Shown piece by piece: positions 3,231-64,000 of a stretch of 64,000 nt of DNA. The DNA is from Glutinoglossum americanum. Taxonomy: Eukaryota; Ascomycota; Geoglossomycetes; Geoglossales; Geoglossaceae. The notes under the pieces were generated by a model that was not told the DNA's origin, did no database searches, and was given only the letters and a program-made list of their open reading frames with translations. The stretch is taken from NCBI GenBank assembly GCA_020080175.1, contig JAGHQL010000007.1, forward strand, positions 186,001 to 250,000. Reading direction: 5' to 3'. A program made the position numbers and the translations under genes. How positions within the stretch are numbered: position 1 is the first letter of the stretch; each line of letters opens with the position of its first letter.

Positions 3231-3239
3231 TGAATATCA

Positions 3240-12167: not shown

Positions 12168-14656
12168 ATGAATTCCTCACGGTCGAGACTACCACGACGT
12201 CATACACAGCGTCAAGCTCTCCGTTCCGCTCGAAATGCAGCCCCGCAGTGTGATTTACAAAGTCTGGAGAGCTCTGAGGCACTGGAGCAACGGATTAGAA
12301 GAAACAACAAGTCAGATTCCAACTGGGATACCGATTCTGTTTCAGACCGGGAACGAGACTCTGGATATAGTTCCCACTCTAACCATGAGGTTGAGGCTGA
12401 GGCTGAGGCTAGATACTATGACCAAATGATGGACAAGTTCGAGGAAGAAGGGCCAACCTTGTCTAATCCTGGTGACGGTACACTGGGCATGATGCGGGGG
12501 GAAAAGCGAAATTGGCAAAAGTAAGTCTACCATATTAAAAGAACAAGATAGAGGCTTACCTGTTATTTTTCTCCCTTAGATTTTGCGAGACTATGAAAAT
12601 TGATGCTGAACAGGCCCTTATTGCATGCGAAGCGAAAAGATTCAAAGCCTACCTTATCTGGCGGGTTAGACATTCTCGCGTTAAAAAAGAATCTACCATT
12701 ATAACCTATTGGAAAGTCCTTAGCATGGTATATGCACGATCGGCCTATCGCTATATGGATGAGGGCGTCTTGTATGACTTGAAAAATGTGAGTAGACTAT
12801 CTTGATTCTGAGTTTAGATGCTGACACTTGATAGTGGATTCCTTCATATCTGACGCGCCTTTTCGGCCTGGACGATTCAGAGAAGGAGAAAGCCTGTTTA
12901 TTTGTTGATGACCTATCGGTTCTGCTCAACTGCCACTGGGTACGCGACACTGAAGTATTTGCTCATGAGAGGCTTCGGGTACAAATGGCACTTCTTCTAC
13001 TTATTAGTGGCTGTACAGCTACAAGACCGGGTGCCCTCGTTGGGGAGAGGCCTCTGTTGTATAGCGATATCAAACTGTTCTTGGTCCAGGGTGAGGGACT
13101 AGTTCCAGTAATTGCGATGAGGCTTAGCCTCAAGCATATCAAGAGATCGGGTGGGAAGTCCAGAGAGTAAGTGTCTTCCTTCGTACTTATTCACTTGTTT
13201 GATCCATATGCTGAGTATCGCAGAAAGGAATTCACATTCTACGAGGGAGCCGACCTTGTCATCTGTCCCATTATACCTTTTCTGGCTCTGGCCTTTGCTG
13301 ATGATGCATTTGAGGCCAACATTACCACCCCGACGGAGATCTACGATCTTGTAATTCCAACTAGGAAAACCCGCATGCATCTAAAGTGGAAAACGAAGTG
13401 GGCCGAACGTCCTATTTTCCGCGATGTTGAAACCACTCCTACTGGTGTACGGATGTCCAAGACCAAACACCTCCAGTATTCAAAACACAGGCATCATTTT
13501 ATCCGTCTTGGTCGGGCATGTGGTTTCGAAAAAGTTCTTCAATTTTATGATCTGCGACGAGCCTCAGGAAAGAAGATTACTGGTAAGAAAGCTGTCATCT
13601 CTTGTGGAATAGGCTTTAACATATTGCTAATCACATATGTTAGAGGCCCTTACTCCTGAGGAGTGCAACCAAATAATGGGCCACCGACATAGGGGCACAT
13701 ACACACGATATTATATGCCAGGGTTTATCGACCGGGACTGTCAGGCCATCTATCTTGGCAGTCCATCGCGAGATGATCTTGTAAGAGCAGTGGGACGGCT
13801 GGCTCGTGATACACTAGCGCCTACAGCCTTAACTGATGCCCAAAAGCTCGAAATCAGCAATGACTCAAGGGTGCTCAAACTCTGCCGGAGGCGTCAACGT
13901 TATGCAGATAAGATAAAAGAGGATCTGAACTTCTCCACCATCAAGGCTGCTGAGGGGACAGAGTGGTATCAACGGCACAAAGCGACACAAGCTGACATCA
14001 ATAACTTGAAGCGTCAACTGAGTGACGCGCGTCTCAATCAGGCTATTCAGGAGTTCCACGATACGATCGATACGATTGAGATAAATAACCAGTTACAGGG
14101 AATCAGGCCAAGTGAGGTCCTTGCACCGTCAACTATAGAATACGAGCTTGAAGAGCGAGCTATAGCGGCCAAATTATTCTTCAAGTCTCTCGATAACCTT
14201 GACGAATCTCGAGTCTTCCGAATACGCGCCAAGCTTATCCGAAATTTGATTGCACTCTGTAAACGGCAGGAGACTCCTCACGCGTATAAAATGTCAACCT
14301 CACGAAAGCGGCAATGTATCTCATATGAAGATGAATACATCAAGGACATTCAGAAGCCCAACAAAATTCTCAGAATAGATGATACTATCACGGATTCCAA
14401 AAAGCTGCCAGAGGGTACTGCTCTGTACTGTCCCTTCTGCAGATGCGACAAGGAGGCCGGACCACGAAAGCGTAATTTTCTGTTCGCCCGCATCGACGGA
14501 CTCCGGAAGCATATTCGAGAACAGCACCTGGATCTGAGGGTGACCAATGAGGAATTGATCTGCCCATTCCAAGGCTGCTCGGCTCCCTTGGCTGGGACTA
14601 TGCACTTCTTCAACCATTCAAAACATCAACATGGTTTGTGTCTGGGGTATACATGA
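12168..14656 (+). CDS. DUF3435 tyrosine recombinase, Starship captain-like
   Basis: Five exons (12168-12520, 12580-12787, 12835-13166, 13224-13582, 13644-14656) join in phase to 754 codons, all introns with GT-AG ends. The product is a DUF3435 tyrosine recombinase, the family that cuts and integrates Starship giant transposons. Landmarks are HWVRDTEVFAHERLRVQ near residue 230, the box-I arginine in TATRPGAL near 252, ALAFADDAFEA in the middle, YDLRRASG near 407, MGH near 431 and the likely catalytic tyrosine in TRYYMP near 441, followed by DRDCQAIYLGSPSRDDL. The C-terminus adds a Cys/His-rich segment (CPFCRCD ... LRKHIREQH, then CPFQGC ... HFFNHSKHQH) that looks like paired C2H2-type fingers, as in other long captains. 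No stop or frameshift is seen, so it may be active. As the first intact gene, pointing into the gene-rich side, its position fits a captain at the 5' end of its element. Confidence 0.9.
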
Positions 14657-16503
14657 TTCTATATCGGAAGGGTCTTGTTACCATGCTACAAAGCTTTTTC
14701 AACACTGTTAGCCTATAATTTTGGTAATTAATTCTTTATAATTCACAATCTCCCGAAGTATATTTCTTTTATCTCTAGATGATGATAATTCATAGATTGC
14801 ATGATGTTCTTCAAGTCGACAGTGACAGGTTTGAGTAGGCTGAGGGCGGCCCTGCAGAGTGACGAGGCTGAAGGCGATATTTGCGCGGATGAAACAGCAA
14901 GTTCCCTCCTCCACAAGCTAGCTATTTGTTCTGCACTTTTGGAGAGCTTCCTGGAATCTATCTGACTTCCCTCCGCAGCATAGCATTGTCTAAGAATATA
15001 TATTAAAGCCTTGCCCTTGTCGGCTGCAGAGGTCAGTCACTGTACTATGTATTGTACTACTATGCTACCTAAACGCCTTGCTCCTGTCGGTCGTAGGGGT
15101 TAGCCATTGCAATGTGTCGTGTTGATCCGACATTTGCACCGCCACGCCCCCTAGCGCCTTGGCCCCTTATCAACCGCCATAGATAATTGATTCGGCTATT
15201 GTACGAAGCTCGGCTGCTAGGTGTTCACTATGTGGGAGCTGCGTACTCAACGGTATAAACGCCTACCCGTTAACCGCCATAGAAATGCCAATCTAAGAGA
15301 ATAATCTAATAATTAACCCTTATGTTTGGAGAGGGAATTTAGTGGATAACGCTAATAGAGGGGAGAGTGATCACTTTACCGAGGGTGAATTTTTGTATTA
15401 GGCATCATGGGAAACTTTAGAATTATTTTTTGGGATGGAAATGCGCGCGCTTCAAGAGGTGCGCGCGTTTGGCAGATATCTGCTAAATTCAGTGGGTTTG
15501 CTGTCCCGATCAGGAATGGTTGAGCACCACATTCTATTCGTGGGCTCGCTTAGCAGGATGCTAAGCCATATTCGGCTCGGAAGCCCCAACACCATAGTTG
15601 TAATGTCAACACTCCAAGCTGATGATTCTGTCAGGCGTGCGGGCTGTACACATAAATTGCGACCCGTATCCCCATATAGATAGCTAAGAATGCAAGCAAG
15701 TTTCACGTATTCTATTTCTGAAAATTTGTCTCTTATAAATACTATTTCACCCCTTGCAGTTTCCTTATGAGTTCAGACAAGCTTCTACCTCTACTTACCA
15801 CAGACTAAGTCCTGTCCCACTACAGCTTGGAAGACTATATGGTCTGCTAACTTTACGTAGAAATTAGGCATCATGTTCAACGGCTTTGGAGTAGCATTCC
15901 AGTTACGATGGCCTCTAAAGATTTCCTTAGGCTTTGGTATGGCAATCCGATGCTCCAAAGATGACACCGATCCTCTTGTTATTGCTGAATATTCTACTTC
16001 GGATGGAACTACTTCAAAGAAAGACCTATTAGATCCGTATGAAATTCTCGACAAAATTCGCAACGCGAGACGAGCTGCATCCCAAAAAGATTTTCTATTA
16101 GAACAGGAGAGTCTTGATAGCAGCATCGACTGCAAGTCTAAAGAGGGATCTTTGGCCGACATCAAATGTTGACAAGTATAACGAGTAGGGCTAGCTTTGG
16201 GATGGAGGTGATATCTTTGCAGGTCGAGGAACAGAGATTTTGGATTGTTTCGAATTGTTATCCCTTTTAAACTTCAAATAACCTCTAAGTTGTTTCAGTT
16301 ACTGTTGATGTATTTGGGATTTCTCTAATGCAATTGAAATTATATCGATGTTTAGCTTCCAACTAATAAAGAATAGCCTTTTTTGCTCCTGTATTTTGAG
16401 TATGTGAGCACTTTTTAGCTTTGCTTCAACTAAGCTAAAACTTCCTTGAAAAAACCCTTCGAATCTAGGACAGCTGACAGCCTTTTAGCGGTGTTGCCGG
16501 GCC
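14657..16503. other. Spacer with degenerate tandem repeat and one weak reading frame
   Basis: At about 15005-15180 a unit resembling CGCCTTGCTCCTGTCGGTCG followed by an AGGGGTTAGCC-like tail recurs two to three times with divergence. A reading frame at 15873-16172 (+, 99 codons, with KKDLLDPYEILDKIRNARRA) has plausible codon use, but the opposite strand is also open and I recognise neither. No other gene is supported. Confidence 0.35.
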
Positions 16504-17056
16504 TCAGGAAGTGAAAAGAGTCTTCAACTCCTCCAGCAAAGTTGCCACAAAATCTCCATCAATTTCCTGGTCAGCTGCACGCAATGGCGAGTCAGAAAGA
16601 AGGTCTACCAAATTGTCGAGTTCGCTGCCATTTCATTTGCTCCAGAGGTCGGCAGGAGGCTCCATTTCAATGGTATTAATATCATATCCGATACATACAA
16701 TCGCGAGACGTTGTTCCGCGGAGAAACGATTCGATGCAAAGCCTTTATTCGGGGACATCTCTTTCAGCCTGATTAGGATGGTGCAGAATTCTTCTCTTAG
16801 ATCATTACCCGTGATTTTGCTCCGATCGTCAATAAACATGATGTGGTTCTGGAGGGATGGAGCTATCTTATTCCAGAAGGTACGTTTCGAGACGATTGAG
16901 TGTGCCTTCTCCCAAGTGTTGATTTTTCGGTTGGCCAAGTCGTACATAGAAGGAGTGGCCTTAGAGGCAGATTGATAGTAGGGACTCTTTTGGAGAAGCC
17001 GCAGGCCACAAAGGAGTAGAATTTGAGGGAGATGAAGATTCTGAACTGAAATAGAT
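16504..17056 (-). pseudogene. Decayed gene of unknown family
   Basis: A minus-strand exon begins after a good acceptor (ATTTCAG near 17057). It reads LLLCGLRLLQKSPYYQSASK, then TWEKAHSIVSKRTFWNKIAP, HIMFIDDRSKITGNDLREEF and SAEQRLAIVCIGYDINTIEM. After DLWSK there is an in-frame TGA (16633-16635), beyond which the same frame continues as NGSELDNLVDLLSDSPLRAA to a natural end at 16504. A single stop, explainable as CGA to TGA, therefore separates two clearly coding stretches. I do not recognise the family. It is a soluble, helical-looking protein of unknown role. No convincing first exon was found upstream, so it may also be 5'-truncated. Confidence 0.5.
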
Positions 17057-17204
17057 TCCTTATGAGCCAGATTTTAATTAGCGACTGAGCAAATAGTTTG
17101 GATGGGACGTTCTGACCATTTTAAATGCCTTTGAGTTATCTGCGGAAGCAACACCGGTGCTTGACACAGAAGGGGGGCTTCTTATATTTCCTCTTCTCAA
17201 GTAA

Positions 17205-17594
17205 ATGGGGTGGTCGTGGTGCTGGTTGATTGGTATATCAGCACTCTTGATAGGAAGTCTATTGATACAGCAACTAGGATGTTGCTTCTATACACATCGT
17301 TTCTCCTATTGGTTTTATGGGGTATGTGAGATAGGCGTGCAGTCAACTGCCATGTCCACAGTTTCACCTAGCGTGGAGATAGGCATCTGGCTTGTTATTG
17401 GCAGTCAGGTATATCAAAATTCCAACACTTTCCAGATACAACGATTAGGAGGACGTTTCCTCTATGCGCGCCTTCCCTTTAAGCACGCCTCCCTTCCAAT
17501 CTGGTTTGGAGTCTTGTTATGGACCGCCATATTTGGTCACTTGATGCTGCTATTTTCACCATTACTTCATGAACCAGCTAGTAAAAGAAGATGA
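17205..17594 (+). CDS. Possible small membrane protein (weak)
   Basis: This is a 129-codon frame opening with a hydrophobic stretch (CWLIGISALLIGSLLIQQLG) and with a second near residue 105 (WFGVLLWTAIFGHLMLLFSP). Such frames can be the mirror image of coding sequence on the other strand, but here the opposite strand carries several stops. No family is recognised, no intron is needed and no conservation is known to me. It could be a real two-pass membrane protein or chance. Confidence 0.25.
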   Translation: MGWSWCWLIGISALLIGSLLIQQLGCCFYTHRFSYWFYGVCEIGVQSTAMSTVSPSVEIGIWLVIGSQVYQNSNTFQIQRLGGRFLYARLPFKHASLPIWFGVLLWTAIFGHLMLLFSPLLHEPASKRR

Positions 17595-17676
17595 GAGCTG
17601 CTTGAAATTCTATGGTAGCTACTAGTATAGACTACAAGAAATAAAGTATTTCTTGTCGTACCTATCAATGCTACCA

Positions 17677-18734
17677 TCACTGTCCCCCTGTCTCGGGGGT
17701 TTCAGTTCCCTTGAGCTTTATTTCACTAGTAGTTGGTTAGATTAAATCGTGAAAGCATCTATCGGATAGTATTTCTCACATAATATACCCTGATAGAGAG
17801 CCTGTGGGGCGCGCTCGCACCTTCTGGCCTGGAACCATAGCCCTTAGACACGTCATTATTAGGTCATCAGATTTATCTAGAACAAGAGTTTCGTTATGCT
17901 TGTTACGAAACCTAGAAAGATATTAGTTTCGATGAGTGATATAGACCATTGATAACTTACAAGTTGCCTTTATAATTATTGTCAGGCCGGCCATTTTCGG
18001 TCTCCCATATCCAGTAGTCCACAATAAGTTCACTTCCTACTGATGGCCTACTGACACTCCCTTCTTCTCCTTCCAAGGTAACCATCCATTCAAGAGCAGA
18101 GCAACGCTCAATTTGTAACCCTTTATCATTGATACGTAGAACCTGCACGTTCCTGATTCTTAGTTAAAATATTGCTCCCACATAATATAAAGGGGTTTCT
18201 TACATATAAATTGTTGTATTAGGGCGTATGTGATATTCGATATTGCTATCATTTGTATAAGACTTCACGTACCCTTTTTCACCAAAGGCTAGTTTACTAA
18301 TGGAATTCTGTTAGTACCAGCAAGATTAAATTTCTTTAAACGTACGGTGGAATTCTCAAAATAGCTCGCTCTCCCATAGTCATGCTCATGACCCCTCTTC
18401 GTAAGCCTGCCCCTAACATTAGTAGACTGTAAGTATAAGAGAACTAAGATGGTACATTCCTTCCATCGTGAGTTCCTTGTCCATTGTGATAATCCACTTA
18501 TCCTCTTTGAGATCTCTGGAACGAGTGTCAGCATTGAGCCTGTTAGTGACTCTATAGAGGTTCATCTACTCACAATTTCTTAGAGTCACTATCTGTGCAG
18601 CTGGGGTCGCAGAGAAACACTTCGAGCCAGATTTCCACCTTATCGCCTCTCTTTGGCATCGCTAGGTCATTGTTACCGAGCGTCAATATCGTTTTATCGA
18701 CTTCCGTCTCTTCTATATCAGGATTCTGTGCCAT
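17677..18734 (-). CDS. Two-domain FKBP-like protein
   Basis: Starting at the ATG at 18734-18732, six or seven short exons give two FKBP-type folds in tandem. Domain 1 has MPKRGDKVEIWLEVFL, then GVMSMTMGERAILRIPP, KLAFGEKG and RPNTTIYM, a close match to the FKBP core (the family has GVxxMxxGExAxLxIPPxxAYGxxG and PNxTLxFxVEL). Domain 2 has SVGSELIVDYWIWE, LIMTCLRAMVPGQKVRARP and a last strand, IEIKLKG, added by an intron-spanning exon that ends at 17677. FKBPs are peptidyl-prolyl isomerases or scaffolds. In domain 1 the aromatic pocket residues and the Phe-Asp of the catalytic cleft are not conserved, so isomerase activity is doubtful. The splice between the 18574-18734 and 18350-18430 exons is uncertain. 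A second, single-domain relative lies at 32980-33729. Confidence 0.65.
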
Positions 18735-19616
18735 AACGAAGAGGCAATATTGAGAATCAGGTAAAACATTAGGTTGAGTGAGAGGCTATTACTTTTACCC
18801 TGTGGCTCTAAAGTTCATCCGCCTTAGAGAATGCCGGAGGAAAGAGGGTGAGGGGGCGGCTTATGGATTCACCCGGAAATCTGACCCTCAAATCAATACA
18901 GGTAACTAATGTAGTGTAGAGGCTATGACAAATATATTATGTGATAGCCGTGCTTCTAGACTTAGCCGCCGCTGTCTTTACACTTGGCACGTCAATCGTG
19001 GACACTCCGAAGGCAGCCTAGAGACAACTAACTTACCGATCCACTGCATACAACCTACAGATAACCCCTTCTAGCCAATACTATTCCCAACACGAAGCAA
19101 CTAGTTGCCGAATCCCTACCTGACTTCCGCGAACTAGTTCAAAATATAATGGCTGAAGGAATCCACTCATGCTCTCTGCAGTATCTCTGTGAGAGATTAG
19201 GGATAGCAAGTAGACATCAACGGATCTGACTTCCGTATCTAGTGCATTCGGTTAAGACTTTAAAGTCATTCTGATACACCATAAGGGATCAGCGAAGTTC
19301 TTCCCATTTCAGCAATATACATGCATATGGAGCTCAATAATGAGTCTAGAAAAAAAAACAACTACCTTTTGCTGCTGGTCTCTTAGGCGAAAGGATCAAT
19401 ACAACAGAATTAAATTGAAACAGAAGGAGCTAAAAGGCCTCAGCGCAGAAAAGTTCCTTGTATTGATAGCTATTTGCATTGCCTCTTCAGTTCTTTGTAA
19501 GCCTTGTTCGCGCTAGATCAATGTCCCATGTTAAACTAAAGAACAAGTGCTGTAGTCTCTAAAAGGGGCAGGTAAAGTGGATAGGTTCAAAAAGTTCTGA
19601 ATAGGAAGAAATGAAA
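18735..19616. other. Intergenic, nothing recognised
   Basis: No gene or repeat is supported between the FKBP-like gene and the 3' end of the glycosyltransferase gene. Stops are frequent in all frames. Confidence 0.45.
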
Positions 19617-20982
19617 CTACCACGACAACTTCTGCCTCCAATCGCTGAAAGATGCCTGTTTACGCTTATCAATAGGAATCATGCGATATCCATCGTCCAC
19701 ATCTGCTCCTTCGCGGGTTCCCCACGCAGTCTGGTATAGTAACACTAGTTAGTATGGCAATTTAAATATTTAGAGCGGGTAGGGGCTACTTACTATATTG
19801 AGAGTGAAGAATGCATAAACCTTTATAAAACCATGGAAGTACCCAAAAAGTATTGAAACTGGTAAGAGGACAACATCCTCAGGATACCGCACAAAGTGGC
19901 CGAGTAACTTCACAAACTTGCTTATAAGCATCCAGAGCAGTAGCACACTAAGAGCGCCCCAGTTTTGCGTGGTTTTGATCAGGAGGAACACAAGAAGCCC
20001 ATCGCCGATAATGGCTGGAGGGGAGAGGGTCGCTAAATGAAGCGCATATGCGCACCACGGCTGCTGTCTTTCTCGCCCGGGTCCATATTAGCAATCGCCT
20101 TGAATCCTCTTGTGGGAAGAACCAACTAAACACTTACTTCCAGATATATCTCTCGCGCAACATGCTTGTTAGATTGCTCCTCCAGTTACTTCGTGACCAC
20201 CGCAAGCACTGTTTCAAGAACCTTGGATTGTCCTCTAATGTCGTTTGTAGTTCAGCCTCTCGGCAGTATTGTATGTATGTCTTCCATCCATGCGATACCA
20301 TCCATCGCGTGATGAAGTTGTCGTCATCAGTGTTGAGCTGGTATCTGCCAAGCCAAGACTCATGTGTGAAGCCGTAGGTAAACTCCAGATCTTGTAAGAT
20401 GTGTGTGCAATAGGTAACGGTTCTGCCTGAGAGGCATGAAACTCTTCCATCTATATGGGTTGTAGCCGATATCTCAAAATTCCTTCGTTCTAAGTAAAGT
20501 GCTCCGAGAAACCCCCAAATGTTTGGGCAGTCAGCGCGCCGTAATCTTTGGGATGTTCCAACACCACCGATATCCGGCTTCTCAAAAGCTGCAAGAATCC
20601 AATCCAAGATCCTGGGTGGCCAGATAACGTCGTCGTCAGCAAACAGCGTGATTTTGGTCAAGACTTCAGGCAGTACTCGGCACATCTGACGGCGTTTGTT
20701 CGCATGGGCGACGCTGACCACTCGGATGCATGACGAGTGGATCAATGCCGCGGTGCTCTTCAGCCGTTCGAGGTTTGCATCTATGGTGACTAGGATAATC
20801 TCAGAGGGGGCTGCGCTGAGACATGTACAGAGTGTTTGTTGGAAATCAGGACCCTCGCCATCAATAGTAGGAATTATGATAGTAACATCCTTGGATGTTA
20901 AGGTGGGCTTCTCCGGTAGAGGAATTGGCTTGAATGTCCAGTGGGATACACAATTCACAATTAACCGTACATAGCGGTACAA
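19617..20982 (-). CDS. Family 2 glycosyltransferase, Cps1/polysaccharide-synthase type
   Basis: Exons 20982-20138, 20067-19794 and 19730-19617 join in phase. The introns are 20068-20137 and 19731-19793, each with a CTAA-type branch site. The protein is a membrane GT2 of the fungal Cps1-like kind, which uses a nucleotide sugar to extend a polysaccharide at the plasma membrane. Motifs seen: VTIIIPTIDGEGPDF, the metal-binding FADDDVIWP, the acceptor-side NTDDDNFITRW and QCLRWSRSNWRSN (the QxxRW-like site). They are followed by hydrophobic segments (IIGDGLLVFLLI; ALSVLLLWMLISKFVKLLGH) and the tail ending WRQKLSW. Family members also have an N-terminal membrane segment. A splice acceptor lies at about 21017 and a further exon up to about 21200 is possible, so the start given is the first in-frame ATG and not certain. 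No damage is seen. Confidence 0.8.
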
Positions 20983-21757
20983 CCTACCCCATAGAAGGTC
21001 AGTATGGAATGAGCCAGCCTAGAACGAAAGAAGCTGCTACTGCTTGAGCATACCACAGAACTCTGAAAGCCTGAGCAGAAGAAAGCATTGCAAGATGAGA
21101 GGATTGAGAAGAAACTGTTGTAGAAATACATACAGGTTGCAATTGAGCTCTTGGAGGCCTGGCGGCTTTGAACATCTAAATACTCTAACCGCGTGCCCAT
21201 CAGATGATGAGTACTCGCTTGAGCAAGAACTCAACTAGAAAATTTTTTTTTTTTAACTTGGTTTTCTCCTCTTTTGATTGAGACATCCTGTGTTGGGGTT
21301 AAAGTTCTGCACCATTGGACATCCCGCGTCGACGGTACTACATGCAGTCCCAATTGTTTAGCTATCGTATACCAGGGCTGACCACATAGAACTCATACCT
21401 ATCTCTGCCGTGTCTTGCTAGTCTTCTTGCTGGTCTTCTCGTTGGTCCTTTCGTCGTTACGGAAAGGCTGTCGACTAACCTTCAAAGACTGCTCCGAACA
21501 GAATCCACGCATCATAGGCTATGATCGCCCCATAGAGAGTGCTCAATAGGGCCTTGACTGTAGGACAGTTGAGAATAGCCTTTCTAGAGATAAAATGGCG
21601 GTGATGCAACGAATCAATTTCCTCAAACTCGCTTCGTGTCATCTACTGTAAGTTTCTAGGCATGAAAATTCTAAGATTAGTTCTAATGTGATTTTGTTTT
21701 TCATTCAACGAAAGAACTAGCTACACCAATAAATGCAGCAGAGTCATAACAAATCTC
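20983..21757. other. Possible 5' exon of the glycosyltransferase gene, then spacer
   Basis: Frames up to about 21200 on the minus strand could supply the first exon of the GT2 gene through an acceptor ending TTCTAG at about 21017, but the resulting intron would be only about 35 bases, which is short for a fungus. From 21241 to 21757 nothing is supported. Confidence 0.3.
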
Positions 21758-23248
21758 CTAACTACTCCCGTTTCCGGGGTCGAGACCTGGAAGGCCAGAG
21801 ATGAGAGGTTGGAGGGTTAACTTGTAAATGGTGTCAATTTTCTGATTCTCCCTACGCTGCTTCACAACCTTCGCGATACTTTGGCGGTATGCGTCCAAAA
21901 TGTCCCCGAATTCAGGCCAAAGTTTAGTGAATGTACTAGTGTATTCATGTGCGCGACAGATAATCAGGGGGATACCAGGTATCTCCAGGATCAGCCTAAT
22001 CCAATGTCCTAGCTTTTGGATATTGTCTTCGATCGTAGCTAGAAACTCCTCGTCATTGCGAAGTCCTGCGAGCGTATAGTAATTAACTCGCGTTAGGAAG
22101 TCATAGTATCTCTCAAGGAGCTGGCTTAGGCATTCTGCCCTGTAACCCTCGGCTACAGTATGTTCCTCCGCCTTGGTAATTCCATCGCAAAATTCCCGAA
22201 CGTGCCGTTGCCATTCTCTCCCCAACCTCCACACGGTCCAGTCATAGGAGTTATCATCTATGATTCCTGCTTCCGTAAATTGGCGAGCGAAGATACTTCG
22301 CAGATAGTTATAGTTTGGTACTTCGTGGGGCTCGAGGCCATGTATGTAGCTGAGATATTCTACAAGCTTCGGCCAGTCGGGAAGTTCCTGAAGGAGATTT
22401 TGTTTTTTCGTAGCAATATCATCCTTAGACAAGCCTTCCCAAGGAAGGCACCCACGGAAGAAGTATAACAGGAGATAAGCGAGCGACTCTAGGTCGTCAC
22501 AGGGATATTGCTCTGTCTCAAATTTTAGGTATGTGGCTTGTGTATGTACTGTACATGGGGTCTTGCACTTACCAGCATTGATACTAGCATAAAGATCACT
22601 AGTAGTAACTCTGTTTTCGATGCTGGTGCCTTGCAAGAGCGCCTCGAGTGAAGGTTTTTCTGCCCCAGATGTCAGGTATACAGTCTGTGTACGTAGGACC
22701 CTATGCTTACCAGTGCCCCCATCATCATTAGAGATGACATCCAAGGTTTCATCGAGTATGCCGCCATCTTGCCTCCTATAGTATTTTGCATGACTAAAGC
22801 TAATGAGAAAGACAGAATCGCCTTGAATATGAGTGGCAGTAACGTGGTCGGGCTGGATATTACAATGAACGATACCTCGCCGATGCAAGACTTCGAGGCG
22901 AGTGATGAGTTGGACCGATAGCAGGAGCACCGTCTTCAAAGAGAAGGGCTTAGGGAGTATATTCCAGATATTGGTGATAGGGGGTCCTGTGAGCTGAAGG
23001 ATCAGGCAGTCTCCTAAACTTTCGGAGCTAGAAAATCCGAGAGGGAGCGGGAAACCAGGGAGACCATCCAGATCCTTATAGACACCGTACTCATGCGTGC
23101 TACTCTGGACCTTGATAGCGACATGTTCGGTATCTCCGGATCTCATTCCTTGAGAGCACATTAGTGTGTGTGTAATGAGTATTTGGCTATAAGATACCAT
23201 ACCCTTCCATACATTGCCGCCGCATTGTTCTATAAGTATAACATCCAT
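21758..23248 (-). CDS. Casein-kinase-1-like pseudokinase
   Basis: The frame is open for 496 codons, but three stretches have intron signals, multiples of three in length and no stops: 23149-23202, 22660-22710 and 22513-22572. Removing them restores family-like sequence (for example YASINAEQYPCDDLESLAYL) and about 441 residues. The C-lobe signature CDDLESLAYLLLYFFRGCLP is that of casein kinase 1. The N-lobe lysine is present (VAIKV), but the glycine loop is missing, the HRD motif reads HCN (GIVHCNIQPDHV) and the DFG position reads SFS (ISFSHAKYY). It is therefore likely a non-catalytic relative. The C-terminal 190 residues are helical and unassigned. Similar proteins recur in fungal accessory genomes. 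No substrate can be inferred. Confidence 0.75.
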   Translation of the reverse strand: MDVILIEQCGGNVWKGMVSYSQILITHTLMCSQGMRSGDTEHVAIKVQSSTHEYGVYKDLDGLPGFPLPLGFSSSESLGDCLILQLTGPPITNIWNILPKPFSLKTVLLLSVQLITRLEVLHRRGIVHCNIQPDHVTATHIQGDSVFLISFSHAKYYRRQDGGILDETLDVISNDDGGTGKHRVLRTQTVYLTSGAEKPSLEALLQGTSIENRVTTSDLYASINAGKCKTPCTVHTQATYLKFETEQYPCDDLESLAYLLLYFFRGCLPWEGLSKDDIATKKQNLLQELPDWPKLVEYLSYIHGLEPHEVPNYNYLRSIFARQFTEAGIIDDNSYDWTVWRLGREWQRHVREFCDGITKAEEHTVAEGYRAECLSQLLERYYDFLTRVNYYTLAGLRNDEEFLATIEDNIQKLGHWIRLILEIPGIPLIICRAHEYTSTFTKLWPEFGDILDAYRQSIAKVVKQRRENQKIDTIYKLTLQPLISGLPGLDPGNGSS

Positions 23249-35632: not shown

Positions 35633-36291
35633 ACTTGTCTTTCCTATCCACGCTCATGAGTGAGGGCTAAAGTATGAATATAATGTTTGAAGAAATAAAG
35701 GGTTATTATTTCTTATCTTCATAGATGCTAGTAATATTTACTGTTTTTTTATTATCCCCTAATTTGAGGTATTCGCCTAACTGAAAATTTAAAATAACTG
35801 GCACACCTTCGAGCGTGGCGCCAAGTCGCGCAACTTCATTGTGATTTTTTTTTTTTGGGGGTGGGGGTAACATGACGCCTAGCATAGAAGGATCGCCCGC
35901 ACCAGCAGTGGTCTCACCTCGGCCCTTCACCTGCAGGGTTACGCGGGCGAGGGTGTAGGTCCGATAGAGTGGGCAGCAGCGGACAATGCACTCAGGAGGG
36001 GTCATTGCAGGAATGCAGCCTAAACTCGGTGGTGAAAAGGGCTAGATGGGTGGTGGTAGCACCCGGGTGATAAATACATAAGCTTTGCAGCCATGAATCC
36101 TCCTGTGCTAGATCGACGATTCTGGACACTGCCCCCCTTTCCCTGAGTGTAGGAGTTTCCACATTCTGGTGTGAGCCGTCACCCGGGAAATCGGCTGAAT
36201 TAACACTAGCTAGGTAATCTCCTAAACTTTTCAGGTCTTCAGCCTCCTTGCTTAGTGAATACTACTACTTTTTTATCACCTTGATTCAGAA
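35633..36291. other. Intergenic, promoter side of the P450 gene
   Basis: No gene is supported. The stretch contains a T-rich and G-rich tract at about 35846-35870 and probably the upstream regulatory DNA of the P450 gene that starts at 36292. I recognise no binding site. Confidence 0.4.
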
Positions 36292-42945: not shown

Positions 42946-43091
42946 TGATGTGTGGTGACGTTACTGGGATCAGCTTGGTTTCCCGTTAAGCCCAAAGCAA
43001 TTATGGGGTACGTATAGGCGAGTCATTTGTGCCGCCTTGACAAAAGCCTTCAGAACAGCGATTTTAGCAACTCCACTCCTTCAGGGCCAAT
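42946..43091. promoter_or_regulatory. Short divergent intergenic region, likely bidirectional promoter
   Basis: Only 146 bases separate the start codons of the minus-strand nucleotidyltransferase and the plus-strand metallophosphoesterase genes. Such spacing leaves room for one shared promoter, so the two genes are probably co-expressed. I recognise no specific binding site. Confidence 0.45.
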
Positions 43092-44001: not shown

Positions 44002-44726
44002 TTACCCTAGAAGGCCTTTCTGAACATCTCCACTTTGTGGTGGTGGCAAATCGTTCAGAGAAATGCTTTCTACTTCTTTCTCTGCAGCCTCTGTATCAAT
44101 GCCAATACGCTGAAAGGCATACAGTAAATGAGGATATCTTTTGAGAGCCAATCCGGAATAGTAGAGGCTAAACTGGCTGGCGCTGTTCCGAAGTTTGTCG
44201 AGGAAGGTCGACTCCAGGTATACAAGATCAGCTGCATCACTGTGTTTTTCCCGCGTGGCAGCAGCTCGGAGCTTCCCCTTAAAGAGGTAGACTACGTCTA
44301 ATAAGGAAGCTGGCTTTTCACCCAGCTTTTCCCCACGAACTTGGAAGACCGTCGGAACCAGCGTTTGCATCGCGGCCGTTGAACCTGATTTAAATTGTCA
44401 TTCAAAGAGAACCTCAAAGAATGTGCTACCAGAGACTCACCCACGAACAGCTCCACAAGAACAGATTCACTACTAGTTCCATCGTTCCAAAAGAACGCAA
44501 CGTAATCCTCTCTAGTTTGAGAGATAAAGCGAAAGCCGTCTCGTCCATCCAATACCATCAGCACCTGCTGCTTGTCGCTAGCCACGAGGCAATCGATATC
44601 TTTACTCTCGCGGGGGCCACCCCGAATTGCGACAGCCCATCCACCAAATATTCCATGTTTGATGTTGTTTTCAGAGAGAACTTTGTAAAGGGCAATGGCT
44701 GCGTCATTGAGCCTCTCTTGTCGCAT
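44002..44726 (-). CDS. Nucleotidyltransferase-fold protein (second of pair)
   Basis: Exons 44726-44441 and 44384-44002 join in phase to 222 residues. The active-site pattern is clear: the Gly-Gly helix start in GIFGGWAVAIRGGPR (Gly28-Gly29) and the DxD in ESKDIDCLVAS (Asp43, Asp45), with a downstream VLVELFVG strand that could carry the third acidic residue. The C-terminal half (ASLLDVVYLFKGKLRAAATR, HSDAADLVYLE) is a helical substrate-binding part like that of minimal nucleotidyltransferases and AbiEii/DUF6036-type proteins. It is better conserved than its partner at 42186-42945 and probably catalytic. The 3' end faces the metallophosphoesterase gene at 37 bases. Such genes are rare in fungal core genomes, so bacterial ancestry is possible. 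Confidence 0.75.
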
Positions 44727-45335
44727 GGTGCTGAGGTGGAGAGTAGCTAAAGGATATCACCTTAATTATTTAGCATTATTTTAACATATCGTGGGCTGTT
44801 ATTCCTTTTATGTTCGCACAAAAACAAGGCTGGAGATACGGAGCTTATTGATTAATGATTGGCACGGGTCAGAATGTCTTTAGCCGGTTGGTATCATGCT
44901 TAAGAATGCATGTGGGCGCAGCCGCGCTGGATGCACTAGCCCGTCTTTCTGGAAATCATACGAGTCGACCAAAGAACCGATGGGAGATCCAGGGAGTAGA
45001 CGCTGGAGATGGTGGTTTCGAAATCCTTTCGAAATATCGCGCGATCGACTTATGATTTCGCCGGCGGTCGCTGCGTTCAACGCGGGAATTTGGGGTTCCT
45101 TGAGTCCTACCGGTGCATAGTACTGCGGGGTGCGCTTCCACGCCGGTCGCGAAGGACGGGAATCGGAGTGCCTTTATGTTTTGAGGGGAAAACGATGCGG
45201 TTAGGGATCAAGTCATATTCTTTGTAAGGGTGGTGTGGAATCTGCGTTCTAAGTGATCAAAATTCTGATCACTTAGCCGATGACTAATCCCGTTCCCCCA
45301 CGGCATTGGTCAAACTTTTTCAACATCGCTGCATC
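44727..45335. other. G/C-rich spacer with a hairpin
   Basis: Several overlapping frames are open because of higher G+C, but none has a domain. An inverted repeat (AAGTGATCA at 45251-45259 against TGATCACTT at 45266-45274) lies just upstream of the next gene and could be a transcription-factor site or chance. Confidence 0.4.
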
Positions 45336-49132: not shown

Positions 49133-49894
49133 CCAAGCCTCAGCTAGACAGTACACCAAAATGAGAGCAAAAAGTGAGTGAAAATCCAAAAAGCAGTGCC
49201 AGGATCTTACCACCGCCTGCTATATGTAGTTGGCTAAACTCTAACTCTTAATAGCCCCTTAAGCGCCACATTTCTACAGCGAGCGCGAGCTTAACTTATT
49301 TTAATAAAGTAAACTTAGGCTAAGCCTAATAAGTGAGGCCATCCAAATGCATAATGTCGGTTGATGTATGTAAGTGATAGTTTTTGTATTGACTGCTATT
49401 GATTAAAACTTCTATTCTTAAGACTAAAAATACTCACTTTCGACTTCTTTTTTTTATTTGTATTCCTAAACATTTCCGAGAATAGATAGCGATGGTCATT
49501 TATACTTTCTTTCTGGAAGCACATTTCCTGAATTCCGTTAACAGGAAACGAAATCCTAGATTTTACATTCGAGAAACGCTTTCCTCAAAACTTACTCTAG
49601 CTCACAGAATGACAGTAGTAGCTCTCGGGGGGTACCCAATCAGGATCTTAACCGCTCCATGGCAGTCGGACTAGGCATGCACGTGGCCAGCATATCATGT
49701 AACTAAAAGCAGAGTTGAGGATCAAATAAAAGCCAGGCGGCTAAGAGCATCACCAGAACCTGGTATCTGATATCCACATTCTGATTCATATATTTATTAA
49801 CCCAGACATAGCCTCAAAGCCGGTTTATAAGATTGCTCGAATATAACATTTTACCTCAAATCCTACGCTATCCACTATCTCTTCCTACTTAGCA
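49133..49894. other. AT-rich intergenic, nothing recognised
   Basis: No gene is supported. It probably includes the promoter of the MADS-box gene at its right end. Confidence 0.45.
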
Positions 49895-50355
49895 ATGGCT
49901 ACCGAGGCTTTGAAAAATACAAATGAGAAACTAAGAAAGAGAAAGAATAGCCTATTCAGAAAGGCTTTGAAAAATACAAACGAGAAACTAAGAAGGAGAA
50001 AGAATAGCCTATTCAGAAAGGCTTATGAGCTTGGAACGCTGTGTAATGTTGACGTGGCAGTGATTGTCCGAAAAAATGGTCGTTATTTCACCTACAGGTC
50101 TATCAACGAGGAGTCTTGGCCACCTGGTATGAAGGATATTGTAAGTATACTTTCCTTGATCTATGAATCCTACTCAAATTGAAATAGCAAATTTCCTATC
50201 CTCTCCTTCAAGATCTACATCCGCAAGACATGCAAGTGCAAGATGAGAGCCCTACCGGGATGAATGATACAGAGGGTTATGAGAAGAAGAAATCAGATAT
50301 TGATCAAAATAACTTTGATCATGGTTATAAATTATCTCCCTGCATCCCTATCTGA
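49895..50355 (+). CDS. MADS-box-like protein with duplicated DNA-binding helix
   Basis: Exons 49895-50140 and 50188-50355 join in phase to 137 residues. The core RRRKNSLFRKAYELGTLCNV followed by DVAVIVRKNGRYFTYRS is a SRF-type MADS domain (family pattern RxxTFxKRKxGLxKKAxELSxLCxxEVAxI). The first 19 residues of the domain are present twice: the block ALKNTNEKLRKRKNSLFRK is repeated at 49910-49966 and 49967-50023 with one residue changed. MADS proteins bind CArG-type DNA as dimers. The canonical N-terminal arm is replaced by the duplicated helix, so normal DNA binding is uncertain. The second exon is short and acidic (GYEKKKSDIDQNNFDHGYKL). It is much smaller than the host's essential MADS regulators and probably an accessory paralogue. 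Confidence 0.75.
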
Positions 50356-57473: not shown

Positions 57474-60400
57474 CTATACTTCCAGATGTCTTCTTTTGTG
57501 GTCCCTATGTCCGAAAACACAGTCTAAACCCTGATCTTCGATAAGAGTTTGAAGCATATAAGGGCAATTGCTGATACTCTGACCAATCTCAGTAATCCCA
57601 TCAATTTTAACGTCTATCTCGTCGCTGAGCGACGCTGCTGAGAATTCTATATATCTCGAGAATGCGATCCCTCTTTTAGTTTCTCCATAGAGCTGTCTAT
57701 TGACACATGGCACGGTTTTTTGGTCATAGTAGAAACGTGCTCCAACCTTCCGGAGCCGCTCAATCAGTACCATAAAGGCTGGTTGCGAAGGTGTCAGGCG
57801 GGATCGTATTTGCGCCCGGCAAAAGAATCCAACTGTATCAATTAGTGGCGTGCCGATAAGCTCGATGTAGAACAAAGACGATAACAAGCCATCTAAGCTA
57901 GAGGTTATTGTGTCTTTGACGTTATATTGGAGACGAGATAGCCATTGACGAGAATAATTTTTGGTAGGGTTCTCATGGCCTTTAATGCTTGCGCCAGGGC
58001 ATATAAAGATATCTGGGGGTTTTCCTACACGAGACCAGATGGAGTCCTGCTCCCACAAGGTTAGATTGATTAGGTCATTATAGGTCCCAAGATCTTTGCT
58101 CTGATAGCCGCGGGACGACTTGGGGGATCTGCACCATAGGTAAGCAGAGAAACAGGTTATGAGCAGGGGTTTCTTACGATAGGTTAGATGTAGCAGCGCG
58201 CCCACTCAGAAGATGTCAGCTCAAACTTTTCCGAGGAGCACAGGTAACTTACACCTGCCAAATAAGCATCTCGTCTTTTAACTTCTCGGAGCGAATTAAT
58301 CTATGATTTCTAGGCTTCCTTTCAACTCCGTTATAGTTTGAGAAGATACACGTCAAGGAATCTTTTGACTTTGTTGCTGTGACAGCGATTTTTGTACCAT
58401 TTGCGGAGCATTCGAATAGAGTCTTGTGTTTCCCGAAAATACTCTTTAGGTCAGAGTCAATAGTAGAAGAGCTGTGTTGATTGCTGGTGGGTAGTGCCTC
58501 TCGCCAGCGGGAGGCAAATCTTGAAAGTTGAAGATATTTGCTTTGTTCGTGACCAGCTGAAGTGCTATCTTGGGAGAACCTTGACTTGGGTATGTTTTCG
58601 GGGGTATCAGTTGCTTGGGAATGATCAAGGCAGTCATCGAGCGACCATTCTTGGCAGAAGATCTGGAGTACGAGCAAAGCACCTATAAAAAGTATTAGAA
58701 GCTGCTTCCCACTCTCTAGCTTGACAGACCTAAACCGCTACCAGTTCCCATGTCGAAATGCTCTCTAATTGGCATTGGCAATTTTAGCTCGTTCTCTAGT
58801 ACTTTAAGACTCATGATGTCTTGAAGACTTCCACCATTAATGCTTAAGCATCTAGAACCGGCTGTGTAAGGCTTTAAGGCGAAATTGACCTTGTTGGGAA
58901 TATTACACAATGGACATGTCTCCAGGGTGAAGTTCCAAGGTTCCTCCGAGGTTGTTTGACCATATATAATTACGCAAGGATCGCAGAGGGTGTGCCTACA
59001 AGAGAGTGTATTATCCGGCCCTCTAGCAATACACGAGAGACAAGTCGTGTTACTGTAAATACTTTTCCATTGCTGGAATTGAGATAACACGGCCTTATGA
59101 GCGGTTGCCGTGTCAGTAGACTTTTCGATATTTGCTGAGACTTGTTGACAAAAGATATTTTCAATTTCTCCTCGAATTTGGGTGAATAGTTCGAGGTCAT
59201 GTGGGTATTGGTCGATTTGGATATTTTTGAAGGCCTTATTATAAAGTTTATTAAAAACCTGAGCGGGTTCAAAATCTGTCTAGGTTAGAATGGAATCTCT
59301 GGTTGACCAGCTCCTACTTACTATGCATATCAGGTGGATAGCTGTCAAGACTTAACGCAGATGCTATGACGGGGACAGTAAAAGACATGAGCGTCTTTCG
59401 AGGTGTATGCTTAAGGAAGATGGTTAAGTGTGAAGAAAGATCTCGGGGCACTGGATTTGGTACTCGCGAAGCCTCCACGAAGCTAAATGGTGTGAGGATG
59501 TCAGTTGTAAAGTGATCACAAGCGGAATGAACGAAGGCCTTAAAGTGATTTGCGGAAAAGGCCACCTTTGCTGTCCGGCGATGGCCTTGTATATCTTGAG
59601 ACTCTTGTAGAAGGCGCGCCTGAAGCCTTCCGAGTTGGGACCGAACACTTTTCTCCTGTAGCAAGCCAGGGTGTAGGGGCAAAGCTAAAACTCGCATGTC
59701 ACTGAACTGCTGCCCTAGTAAGCTGTCGAATTCAGAGTCGGTCAGCTGCCCATTTACTCTCTGTCTGAAGCTTCCGTTTCTGAGATCTGTCTCCTGACGG
59801 AGCTCTTGCATAAAACATATGGTGGCCAGCTTTTCGTCAAAGGCCGCATTAGGATCGTTTGACCGTTTCAAGATCAGGACTCGGGGATATGCTGGCGTCG
59901 GGAGATCTGAAGACTGATTGCTTAAACTTATTAGCCATGATGCTAAGATTTTTGCCGTTGCCCTTGTTCCTCCTAGGTCGTCTGCAAAAAAACAAATTAT
60001 TGTGCAAAATGGAGATATAAGTTTTGTATAGATGAGATTTGCCAAAGAGTTGGGGTCAAATCCTCGAGGGACATTGCGAAGCCAGCGTATTGATCTCTGA
60101 TCAATGACTCCGGGAACAGGACCGACGATAGTTCTTTTGAAGTTCATGATATTGTGTAATTCACAGTCTGCTATAAATGTCGGGGATCGAGCTTCCATAG
60201 TACCTGGGACTAATCGAAGATGGACTTTATTGTGATCATCCTTGCTCCCAATTGAGAACAAGCTGTTCATCACTACAGTTTTTAATTTATCCCCAATAAA
60301 CATCATTATTTGAGGATCTTGTGTGTAAGGAAAACGACATTCCTGGAATGGAGCATAACAGCGATGATGTTCTTGCAAAAAAACTTCATGAAGTCGTGTG

Positions 60401-60516
60401 CGGAGGTCAATCCAGATTGAATCTAATGGTGACATAATTGCTGTGAACGTGGTGAGAGGAGATGAGCTCAGGGCTGTTCTAGATCTTGATTTTATAACCT
60501 TGTTTGGAATTTTCAT
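57474..60516 (-). CDS. Patatin-like protein with RING-like finger, degenerate catalytic motifs
   Basis: Five exons (60516-59322, 59275-58736, 58682-58253, 58204-58178, 58128-57474) join in phase to 948 residues. The fourth is a 27-base microexon. The N-terminal 400 residues are unassigned. A RING-like zinc finger follows (TCLSCIARGPDNTLSCRHTL, CDPCV, then CPLC), and after it the patatin domain (SRCLSINGGSLQDIMSLKVL; IREHFDMGTGSGALLVLQIF; DEMLIWQVGRAATSNLS; KDLGTYNDLINLTLWEQD). Patatin-like enzymes are Ser-Asp lipid acyl hydrolases. Here the oxyanion loop reads NGGSLQD instead of DGGGxRG, the nucleophile motif reads GTGSG where GTSxG is expected, and DGG/A reads DLG, so activity is doubtful. 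Fungal members of exactly this layout are a recurrent Starship cargo family, and some have N-terminal NLR-like roles. The domain call is firm, the loss of activity is likely. Confidence 0.8.
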
Positions 60517-60689
60517 ATCATGTTTTGGTTATCTGGTATTAGATTCTGGGTTACAGTAAGAAAATATAGTAATCGGGGCTTTTCTTTTCCAAATTTGGAA
60601 TGGCAAGGTAGTCCACAGCGCTAAGTTAGCCGCCCGGGATTAGATCCTACTTAGCCGCCCACTCTCGAAGGGCGACTGCCGCCAGCTTG

Positions 60690-61245: not shown

Positions 61246-61467
61246 TCCGTGCTCTGACAGTTCTGGAAAATCGAATGTTAGTTGTAGGTTCCTAAATCTA
61301 GCAAGGTGCTTTTCTCCTACTTCTCAGACAGGCTCAGAAAACCTTCAAAACATCTACAATCTTGATAGCTGTACCAGACCGAGATGACAATACCGGGTAG
61401 CTTCCTCGCTAGCCTCTGATGCGCCCTTGACCCAGACCCCATTATCTCTGTATTCTTTCTTACAGCT

Positions 61468-64000
61468 ATGGATGAGCACTTTTCATCAGTGGCTAAATTA
61501 GTTGGAGTAGTACAGGTCGATATCTCCTCACTCGCGTTTCAGGACGAAGTCGAAGCAAGACAAATTACGGACGCTGAAGTCCAAGATTTGATCAGTATAT
61601 TTAATAAGAGCAGTGATGGGTGCGAACCAAGCAAGCCAGAAAATCAGATTACTGCTCTCATCAGCCCAAGAGAGCTAGATTATATACTCCAGATTTCGCA
61701 ACTCACAAGAGATGATCTTCAAAGATCTCTCTTGAGTGGGGAATACCCAAAGCTTAATACGTTGAATAACAAGATATATTGTCTGAACGGAAGGCGCCGA
61801 ATAAGAGCTGCTGCTGCGTTGGCAGATAAATACTGGTGGGTGATCAAATTATATACTCCCCAATCAGGTAAGTGAAACATCTGTTTTCATCAATCGTATT
61901 TTAACATAATACAATGGAGATGAACATAGAAAAGCCTTCTTGCGAGAGAAAGCTGAGGAATTCTCTCACCAAATTCCATTCTCTGACGGTGAGGTGTATC
62001 GAAAGGTCAGATATTATCAACGACAATCTAGGGAAGATTTAGCTCGAGATTGGAGGATCCGTCTAACTAGCAGCAAGCAATCTTGCTTATCTCGATTGCT
62101 AGGGAATAAAAATCTTCTTAGAGCTTTAGATGAGCTTCTAGATTTTCCTGGTCTATGGGACGGTCTTGAACTGGGCAATATCAAGAAACATTTAGCACTA
62201 CATTGTGATGAGGAAGTTGTGCGTTACTTGAGGCACGTTTATGACACGTGGAACGAGATCACTCTTGGGGACCCAACTATCCAACAGGCTGTTGATATTC
62301 GGACAGTTCAGAGCTTACAGTTACGAGCTCCTTCTGTGAGTGCCACAGACCGTGATTATATCACTTACGAGATGGACAATAAGGCTCTATTTTCGACGAT
62401 AGTAGATAGTAACCTCAGGGAATATATCAAACAGGCGCTTCTCCAGCTCCACGTTGTAATTCCTACCATCAGGTCGTTCCACGAGAACCTCAAGTATTTT
62501 GAGATTGGAGTGAGGATACTCAAAGCTCATCTCCTCGATAGGCCTATTAAAACGACCATGTACGAGACTATGTACGGTCAATGGTCTTCACCAGGAAATA
62601 CCCTGGTAGAAGTTCGAGAAGGAGAGTATCAGCATGTTTTGGTTCCGGAACGGGGGCCTCCCATGGGCTTTGCATTTGCATATAAGCAAATGTTCCTCTC
62701 CGCTCTTCGCCAATTTCCGAGTCTCAGCAAGTATACTCCGCTACAAGAGCGGGGACAGGATGCGATACAGGGAGCCGTTGATCCAACCTACTCTTTACTA
62801 TTCTTAGCACGTGCTCAGCTGCTTGGATTCAGGACCGAGAAGATAGTTAACGGTCTAGAGAATGCTCCAGAGACTGTGGCAGCTCCATATGTCGAGCCTA
62901 TATCGGAACTGAATAGTGACGGGGAAATTATTAAACGGAGATGGGGCCGCCCATTTGGTAACACCTACAAACAGTTTAAAAGGCAGCTCTTCTTGCCAAA
63001 CTTACTTGAGGCGCAAGTGGAAGTGGGTCTTAATCCATCAGCAATGTTTGTTCAGCAAGATTTTTTCAACGCATTCTTCGACTCTACTCCAGAGATTATA
63101 GTAACATCAACAGCTACAGTTTCAGTACCTCCAACCCAACAGTCTCTTGCTACACATGATACAATACCGCCACCAATTCCAATATCCAGTGCTCGAACAC
63201 CACGTGAAACAGCAGTTACACCTGAGCCAGTGGCACTGTCTCGTGCTGAAGTCCCGCTTGCTCCTGAGGCACAACGCCATGGCATCCCACGCGAGCCGTC
63301 GGTGTTGACCGAACAATCGCCTGAGCCATTGGTATCATCTGAGCCGTTGGTATCCCCTGAGCCCGTAGCATTGCCCGAACAAGCGGCCAGGGGAACATCG
63401 ATATCGCCAGGAATAGGAGAACTATTAGATCGATTCAGCCGAACGACGATGGATCTCGGATACAGCGGATATGAGGAAGTTCAAAGCCAAACGGATATGG
63501 TAGGTCAGGGCCAAAATGCGGAAACAATGGAGCAGCGTCGATCTTTCATTGAGGTAAATTCCACGACCTCAGAAGTATCCGAAATTACTATACAAAATGA
63601 TCAACCAATGTCAGAAATCGATATGATTGCTGACGAGAGTGATAACGACCTTCTTAATGATACTGAGAACCACGGCTTCTCTGGAACGTCACCGGAAATA
63701 GATACTTTGGAAGCCGAGGTCTCGCAGGATCATCGATCATTCCTCATACCTGAACCTCTAAATTCCCCCATATCAGTTGCCGAGACTGAAGACAGTCATT
63801 TACCTGAATCTCGGAGTCGGGGCCCTTCTGCTGCAGTAGTCTCCCAGCGACTCCGATCGTTTCTCTCACCTGAACCTTTGGGTTTTCTTACATCACAGGC
63901 CAACCAGCCATCTGAAGCGTGGAATTCGCGGGACCACCGGTCATTTCTTACTCCTGGACCTTTGAGTCTTCTCCCGTCAGCTGCCAGAGCTGAAGACTAT
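61468..64000 (+). CDS. DUF3723 protein, runs off the right edge
   Basis: Exon 1 (61468-61867) and exon 2 (from 61920) join in phase and remain open to the last base, about 827 residues so far. Matches to DUF3723 include KIYCLNGRRRIRAAAALADK, PFSDGEVYRKVRYYQ, LLDFPGLWDGLELGNIKKHL, VRYLRHVYDTWNEI and IPTIRSFHENLKYFE, in the family's usual order. The C-terminal part (from about residue 510) is Ser/Pro/Glu-rich and disordered, and near the window end contains a repeat built on HRSFLIPEPL, RSFLSPEPL and HRSFLTPGPL. DUF3723 genes have no proven biochemical role. They are one of the families known to travel repeatedly in Starship elements. No damage is seen in the visible part. Confidence 0.85.

Follow-up and report, generated by a model that had tools for sequence, protein, structure and literature searches.

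The window, that is, the whole 64,000-nucleotide stretch of Glutinoglossum americanum DNA that was analysed, sits in a contig of 254,784 bp (C285). A gene for a DUF3435 tyrosine recombinase, the captain, was found on the + strand at 12168..14656, and Pfam matched DUF3435 in three of its exon frames (E 1.7e-12, 1.7e-28 and 5.1e-31). The exon model (12168-12520, 12580-12787, 12835-13166, 13224-13582 and 13644-14656, + strand) was open across all five exons and gave a protein of 754 aa, with four introns that were all GT..AG. The first-pass annotation had described an apparently intact DUF3435 recombinase, and these results agreed with it. When the captain was aligned with 11 sequences chosen out of 60 matches, R251, A254, K290, Y406, R409 and Y441 were invariant in all 12. 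These residues could be matched, by order and local spacing and not by structure, to the putative active site R260/A263/K308/Y424/R427/Y458 given for the captain of Sanctuary, from Bipolaris sorokiniana, in the accessible part of PMC12506042, and on this pairing the six proposed active-site positions appear to be retained. Among 7,990 candidates scored, the closest relatives at the protein level were two DUF3435 proteins, P0001 from a 15-kb contig of Trichoglossum hirsutum (81%) and P0002 from an 86.9-kb contig of Geoglossum simile (75%).

Read from stop to stop, the window contains 188 frames of at least 75 aa. Pfam was run on 40 window frames, some of which were rerun or joined later, and the absences reported below apply to those frames alone. 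A 294-aa open frame for a glycosyltransferase family 2 protein (PF13641, E 3.6e-33) lay at 20137..21018 on the − strand, with DNA relatives at C267:50463-51957 and C262:105304-106880. Several genes that had been named from the letters alone were recovered by Pfam, all on the + strand: a cytochrome P450 of several exons at 36259..38225 (one frame E 1.2e-17; pieces joined by eye E 7.7e-48), a calcineurin-like phosphoesterase at 43068..43961 (E 1.3e-09), a MADS-box (SRF-TF) frame at 49847..50179 (E 8.8e-13), and a DUF3723 gene at 61420..64000 whose frame was open at the window edge (E 4.3e-82). The patatin-like (PNPLA) gene at 57477..60528 on the − strand also held up, with an NCBI entry from the same contig (P0064) labelled PNPLA by UniRef and with relatives (P0066, P0068 and P0069) that carry PF01734. 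This gene was without the catalytic serine (nucleophile) and without the DGG motif, and the window has a 10-base N gap at 40260-40269, so that the earlier description of mostly intact genes held only in part. Matches were weaker for the proposed JmjC gene at 40129..41892 (+), which scored 13.1 bits for JmjC_2 against a cut-off of 22 and whose 5′ part contains a tandem repeat and the N gap, and for the nucleotidyltransferase-like frame at 44301..44756 (−), which fell below the curated Pfam cut-offs. A supposed FKBP-like gene had no match in any scanned frame, and the supposed pseudokinase at 21761-23275 had no Pfam match. The NLR-like remnants said to adjoin the region were recovered as TPR repeats and a PigL_N fragment, whereas the NB-ARC domain proposed at 6851-7231 had no Pfam match, leaving TPR and PigL_N fragments as the only NLR traces, outside the captain edge. 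Pfam also identified a ferric reductase 1.9-3.9 kb beyond the window end on the same contig. Of the four accessory families that the accessible part of PMC12506042 names (DUF3723, PLP, FRE and NLR), three were found downstream of the captain, as DUF3723, PNPLA and ferric reductase genes, and Sanctuary likewise carries PLP and FRE genes.

The captain-side boundary could be tested without other strains by means of copies inside the same genome. Window positions 1-10600, 9001-12168 and 18001-64000, together with the stretch L010, were searched against the genome in pieces, and positions 12169-18000 were compared only with the C267 stretch and by the DUF3435 search. The left edge was present in two genomic places, on C285 and C267, and the DNA beyond the edge was unrelated. 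The left terminus and 5′ leader (11680..12167, +) matched C267:121317-121820 at 89%, and this comparison moved the start of the element from 12168, where it had been set earlier, to near 11680, which is 488 bp upstream of the captain ATG. The captain was therefore the first gene at the 5′ edge, on the + strand and pointing inward. In Sanctuary, too, a DUF3435 captain comes first, at about 350 bp from the edge as against 488 bp here (PMC12506042, in part). The C267 copy had in common with C285 the left edge and most of the approximately 10 kb of captain-side sequence; the common DNA at 14657..21836 aligned in pieces at 84-93%, with no counterpart of 15447-17037 and with the match stopping at 21836. 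Small Sanctuary haplotypes are described, in the same part of PMC12506042, as having only the captain-side and far-end modules in common, with differing cargo. The motif comparison gave a terminal motif of the captain end, ATATGTAGGCGATTC, at 11689-11703 (+), and the junction comparison gave a candidate 3-bp direct repeat, CTA, at 11677..11679 (+). The candidate repeat lies within a TATTATA..T..A.CTA target-like stretch, and the bases that follow it are again CTA, so that the cut can be placed only to within a few bases.

A terminus without a captain was found on C285 at 185274, 727 bp left of the window. The end module to which it belongs, probably the right one, is inverted, and in alignments to C263 and C304 its inner part occupied 1..3066 of the window. 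C285:185267-189066 aligned piecewise to C263:276453-280794, mostly at 71-76%, and C285:185266-186269 aligned to C304:76446-75439 at 71%. These alignments began no more than 8 bases from the terminus, and the outer flanks did not align. The captain-less terminus was thus present in three places, on C285, C263 and C304, with the candidate repeat at 185271, 276457 and 76441, respectively, and the DUF3435 search gave no match on C263 or C304. The captain-end motif matched the three ends, in inverted form, at 13, 14 and 12 of 15 positions, respectively, and at equal depth in all three (6 bases from the edge, compared to 9 at the captain end). The score of 14 against the C263 end was reached by 1 of 300 plain shuffles and by none of 300 window pieces. 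Asymmetric terminal inverted repeats, though short, therefore appear to be present, provided that the two kinds of end belong together as a pair. A search with the motif pattern recovered just three of the five termini, and with one mismatch allowed it gave 12 places versus 11 for a reversed control. The candidate direct repeat CTA, only 3 bp long, occurred at four of the five termini and at the empty site described below, with CTT at the C304 terminus; the direct repeat of Sanctuary is 6 bp (PMC12506042, in part). Captain families covered by the accessible part of PMC12257634 include Arwing, Phoenix and Serenity, and an Arwing-family element is said there to have CCCTA for its direct repeat, which is a lead only for the family here. 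By eye, C263:280771-281193 in the end module of C263 resembled a chromodomain, which would parallel the last gene of Sanctuary (PMC12506042, in part), but Pfam gave nothing there at E <= 1, and we make no such claim.

The DNA outside the captain end (flank F, the left target DNA, 10511..11679) and the DNA outside the captain-less terminus on C285 (flank A) were neighbours on C270, with no element between them. Flank F aligned to C270:116022-117089 at 71% for 10737-11679 and at 80% for 10511-10583. C270:116022 is thus probably a paralogous empty site, with 71-80% identity and with A and F separated by 40 bases that do not align, and it is a paralogue in the same genome and not the locus of another strain. 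The empty sites of Sanctuary were seen in other isolates (PMC12506042, in part). No further place for flank F was found in the genome beyond C270, and a search across the A-F junction gave no third place, although this search also failed to recover the copy of A known from C285, and its reach was limited.

DUF3435 gave 37 matches in 22 loci, on 19 of the 317 contigs, and it is therefore common in this genome for a captain-like gene to have no known element; dispersed repeats also surround the site. Both observations would suit ordinary accessory DNA in which an orphan DUF3435 gene stands beside unrelated genes. This explanation is very unlikely given the edge near 11680 in common with C267 and the unrelated DNA outside it, the agreement of the captain-less termini with the captain-end motif, and the joined flanks on C270. 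In addition, DUF3723 was found at two loci in the genome, one on each contig that bears this edge: on C267 it lay approximately 30 kb inward of the edge, and on C285 approximately 50 kb. We dropped the orphan-gene explanation; such a gene should have no element boundary beside it, and here one lies near window 11680.

The right limit of 64000 in the first-pass annotation was merely the window edge, and the contig extends to window-equivalent 68784. The distance from the left edge to the contig end was 57.1 kb with the one 10-N gap, at which the right half is tied to the captain by scaffolding only, and no right end was seen downstream of the captain up to the contig end. The element would thus be at least 57.1 kb long, with one scaffold gap, plus approximately 3.8 kb of the other end, and its right half runs off the contig. 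The far end was displaced: a second end on the wrong side within the contig demands an inversion or a misassembly, and the layout fits a single insertion that was split later by an inversion, or a misassembly. If C285 were misassembled at dispersed repeats between window 3066 and 10511, the element, still a Starship, would in reality be uninterrupted. Repeats at 3706-4366 and 5031-5340 with many copies in the genome and inverted repeat ends at 4325-4367 and 10017-10059 speak for such an error, but the fetched DNA had no N between C285:175001 and window 40259, and we consider the misassembly possible though not the likelier case. It is also conceivable, with a similarly minor share of our confidence, that two Starship elements are involved, with the terminus at C285:185274 left by another related insertion and the right end of the captain element past the contig end. 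Two elements would account for the shared orientation of both termini along the contig and for the related ends elsewhere in the genome. A single insertion, on the other hand, should have A on one side and F on the other, in agreement with their adjacency on C270, and the A-F junction search, within its limited reach, gave no third place.

Taken with the edge shared with C267, the three captain-less termini, the A-F junction on C270 and the accessory genes downstream, the region very probably belongs to a Starship giant transposon, of which it forms the captain side, as first proposed. Starships are set at 15 kb or more in the accessible part of PMC12134995, and a similar mobilisation is proposed there for Cryptons, tyrosine-recombinase transposons of another type. 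A Crypton in place of a Starship is highly improbable and was dropped in view of a DUF3435 captain together with DUF3723, PNPLA and ferric reductase genes over approximately 57 kb. By analogy with other Starships, the captain would recognise the element ends and move the element through tyrosine-recombinase strand exchange, and insertion would occur at AT-rich sites that resemble TATTATA..CTA, with a short direct repeat (here CTA) left behind. Both ends on C285 would derive from a single insertion between A and F, split by a later inversion (or by misassembly), and the missing part of the element would lie beyond the contig end. Like the element here, the Starships in the accessible part of the review PMC12257634 have a DUF3435 captain first, asymmetric terminal inverted repeats and varied cargo; they also have direct repeats, for which there is a candidate here, and RIP decay of copies was counted as a further likeness. 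Unlike in Sanctuary, the ends are displaced here, and the host class also differs (PMC12506042, in part). In the literature searched, outside which the main surveys lay, no Starship paper was found that named Geoglossomycetes. The example from Geoglossomycetes is new, though of an already known kind of element, and its termini and a paralogous empty site were read out of a single genome. Within-genome copies are thus able to define Starship edges where a second strain is absent.

One further gene, at 45336..47876 (+), encodes an 847-aa protein that is probably of PhyH type. The PhyH match was that of a relative, P0063 (E 6.7e-08), and the window protein itself had no Pfam match. A structure prediction from a 3-row alignment gave a mean pLDDT of 35.9, and no fold is claimed. 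The approximately 850-aa protein has an acidic stretch, and its matches in the protein search were confined to Geoglossomycetes. Relatives of the gene were dispersed over 21 contigs of the genome, and 6 of these belonged to the 19 of 317 contigs on which DUF3435 was matched. The hypergeometric p is 6e-4, with contigs weighted alike whatever their size, which is no more than suggestive of a link between the PhyH-type gene and captain contigs. We tentatively raise the idea, which we think more doubtful than probable, that Geoglossomycete Starships own a recurrent passenger in this protein, perhaps serving the element rather than the host. It may, for example, modify or mask the DNA or RNA of the element or a host protein, and the gene is a passenger candidate for testing.

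The captain, the edge with its copies, the termini and the accessory genes together give good support to the conclusion that the captain and the DNA to its right belong to a Starship, as the first-pass annotation had proposed for this region. The available text of PMC12506042 and PMC12257634 gives as hallmarks of such elements a captain as the first gene, direct repeats and asymmetric terminal inverted repeats, and likewise lists DUF3723, PLP, FRE and NLR genes among Starship features. The genome comprises 25.77 Mb in 317 contigs, and C285, the contig of the window, ends at 254784 (window-equivalent 68784). In our literature search no paper paired a Starship with Geoglossomycetes, Trichoglossum or Lichinomycetes; the main Starship surveys lay outside this search, and hence no first report is claimed.

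The captain, a DUF3435 tyrosine recombinase at window 12168-14656 on the forward strand, had been called apparently intact, and this agreed with a gene model of five exons, separated by four GT..AG introns, that yields a product of 754 aa without a stop. Pfam matched DUF3435 in three exon frames. Among 60 matches (7,990 candidates scored), the closest relatives came from Trichoglossum hirsutum, at 81%, and Geoglossum simile, at 75%, followed by Botrytis and Pseudogymnoascus at 53-55%. When the window protein was aligned with 11 captains chosen from the matches, R251, A254, K290, Y406, R409 and Y441 were invariant in all 12. Paired by order and local spacing, these residues match, as predicted counterparts, the putative active site R260, A263, K308, Y424, R427 and Y458 that the accessible part of PMC12506042 gives for Sanctuary, a Starship of Bipolaris sorokiniana. 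Genome-wide, DUF3435 gave 37 matches at 22 loci on 19 contigs, and 29 of the matches contained in-frame stops, some of them presumably introns, as for the window copy. Another DUF3435 gene lies on contig C16 (24095-25462; stretches L004, L006 and L012), with three matches that are all free of stops, and a PhyH-type relative with stops is found about 9 kb downstream; this locus is perhaps a second Starship.

A search of the genome with window 9001-12168 returned seven matches, the query itself included. C267:121317-121820 was 89% identical from window 11665 inward, and the similarity to this copy extended, in pieces, as far as window 21836. C270 aligned to the DNA outside the edge, ending at 11679, at 71%, plus a small piece at 80%, and the remaining three matches (C285:152118, C114 and C241) were short. 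Beyond the edge, C267 was unrelated to the window except for a stretch TATTATA..T..A.CTA, which is present at C285, C267 and C270. The edge was set at window 11680, directly after CTA, and is exact only to within a few bases because the bases that follow are again CTA. Over seven aligned blocks, C267 carried T/A where the window has C/G at 623 positions, versus 181 in the reverse direction, and these differences were most frequent at CpG and CpA, a RIP-like pattern of decay in the C267 copy.

On C270, flank A, the DNA outside the opposite, captain-less terminus (C285:185274), runs to 115981 and adjoins flank F, the DNA outside the captain end (window 10511-11679), which starts at 116022. Between them are 40 unaligned bases, with one CTA at the junction. 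Since A and F are adjacent on C270, the DNA outside both C285 ends resembles the opposite sides of a single target, of which the C270 junction is a candidate empty, paralogous version. A genome search across the C270 junction found only C270 itself and the C285 copy of F; it missed the C285 copy of A, which direct comparison does reveal, and a diverged third A-F place might thus escape. Relative to C270, flank A contains a 6.4-kb insertion left of the window (C285:176517-182937, mostly L009), whose flanking alignments overlap by 2 bases. The C267 captain is interrupted by two inserts, short relatives of the ends of this insertion. Both element ends on C285 face the same way, an arrangement that requires either that the larger part of the element was inverted along with F or that the contig is misassembled. 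No N lies between the two ends, and dispersed repeats do. Two of these, at window 3706-4366 and 5031-5340, between the captain-less end and F, have many genomic copies and are possible inversion or misassembly points. Chromosomal rearrangements in Starship neighbourhoods are described in the available portion of PMC12289983.

Left of the window, the C270-like DNA of flank A ends near C285:185253-185270, where the terminus starts. The same terminus was found on C263 and C304 with different outer flanks, and it is called captain-less because the DUF3435 search of the genome gave no match on either contig. Junction comparison placed a candidate direct repeat at C285:185271, C263:276457 and C304:76441. 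A 15-base motif of the captain end recurs inverted at the captain-less ends with 13 (C285), 14 (C263) and 12 (C304) bases matching, 6 bases in at all three versus 9 at the captain end. The score of 14 against the C263 end was reached by 1 of 300 plain shuffles and by none of 300 window pieces. A pattern built from the termini had three exact genome-wide matches (about 0.4 expected from base composition), each a terminus used in building it; it misses two of the five termini, and with one mismatch allowed it hit 12 places, its reversed control 11. On C304 the captain-less end is set in DNA with a GC content of 33% (72647-76446; L033 and L035), as if heavily mutated.

Among the cargo genes named in the first-pass annotation, the P450, phosphoesterase, MADS and DUF3723 genes were borne out by Pfam, which also revealed a glycosyltransferase 2 and, past the window end, a ferric reductase, whose transmembrane part only just reaches the cut-off and whose NAD-binding part matches at E 4.3e-09. 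Signals were weak for the JmjC gene and for the nucleotidyltransferase that had been grouped with the phosphoesterase. The FKBP-like gene and the pseudokinases were unconfirmed within the frames scanned, as was NB-ARC in the window frames. The patatin-like (PNPLA) gene at 57477-60528 was upheld by its NCBI entry and relatives. Glycine stands in place of its GxSxG serine and the DGG motif is missing, likewise in the Hyaloscypha relative P0065, and the two proteins perhaps represent a non-enzymatic PNPLA subfamily. Two genomic loci match DUF3723, one about 30 kb inward of the edge copy on C267 and the other about 50 kb inward of that on C285; we only infer that the C267 gene belongs to the same element as the C267 edge copy, because DNA similarity ends at C267:112500. 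As far as about 49 kb, parts of the cargo are related in DNA sequence to C70, C69, C267, C16 and other contigs; the final 8 kb of the window and stretch L010 have almost no such relatives in the genome. A 10-N gap (40260-40269) lies within a tandem repeat in the 5′ part of the JmjC-like frame, and reading frames at 60640-61230, between the patatin-like and DUF3723 genes, contain repeated peptide units.

The PhyH-type gene at window 45336-47876 encodes 847 aa. A protein search (7,985 candidates scored) gave three matches: the query, another G. americanum protein and one from Geoglossum umbratile. PhyH was matched by the G. umbratile relative, and the 847-aa protein is probably a 2-oxoglutarate dioxygenase. 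Against the genome it gave 40 matches on 21 contigs, 21 of them with stops, and only the window copy covered the whole query. Six of the 21 contigs also carried a DUF3435 match (p 6e-4, with contigs taken without length correction).
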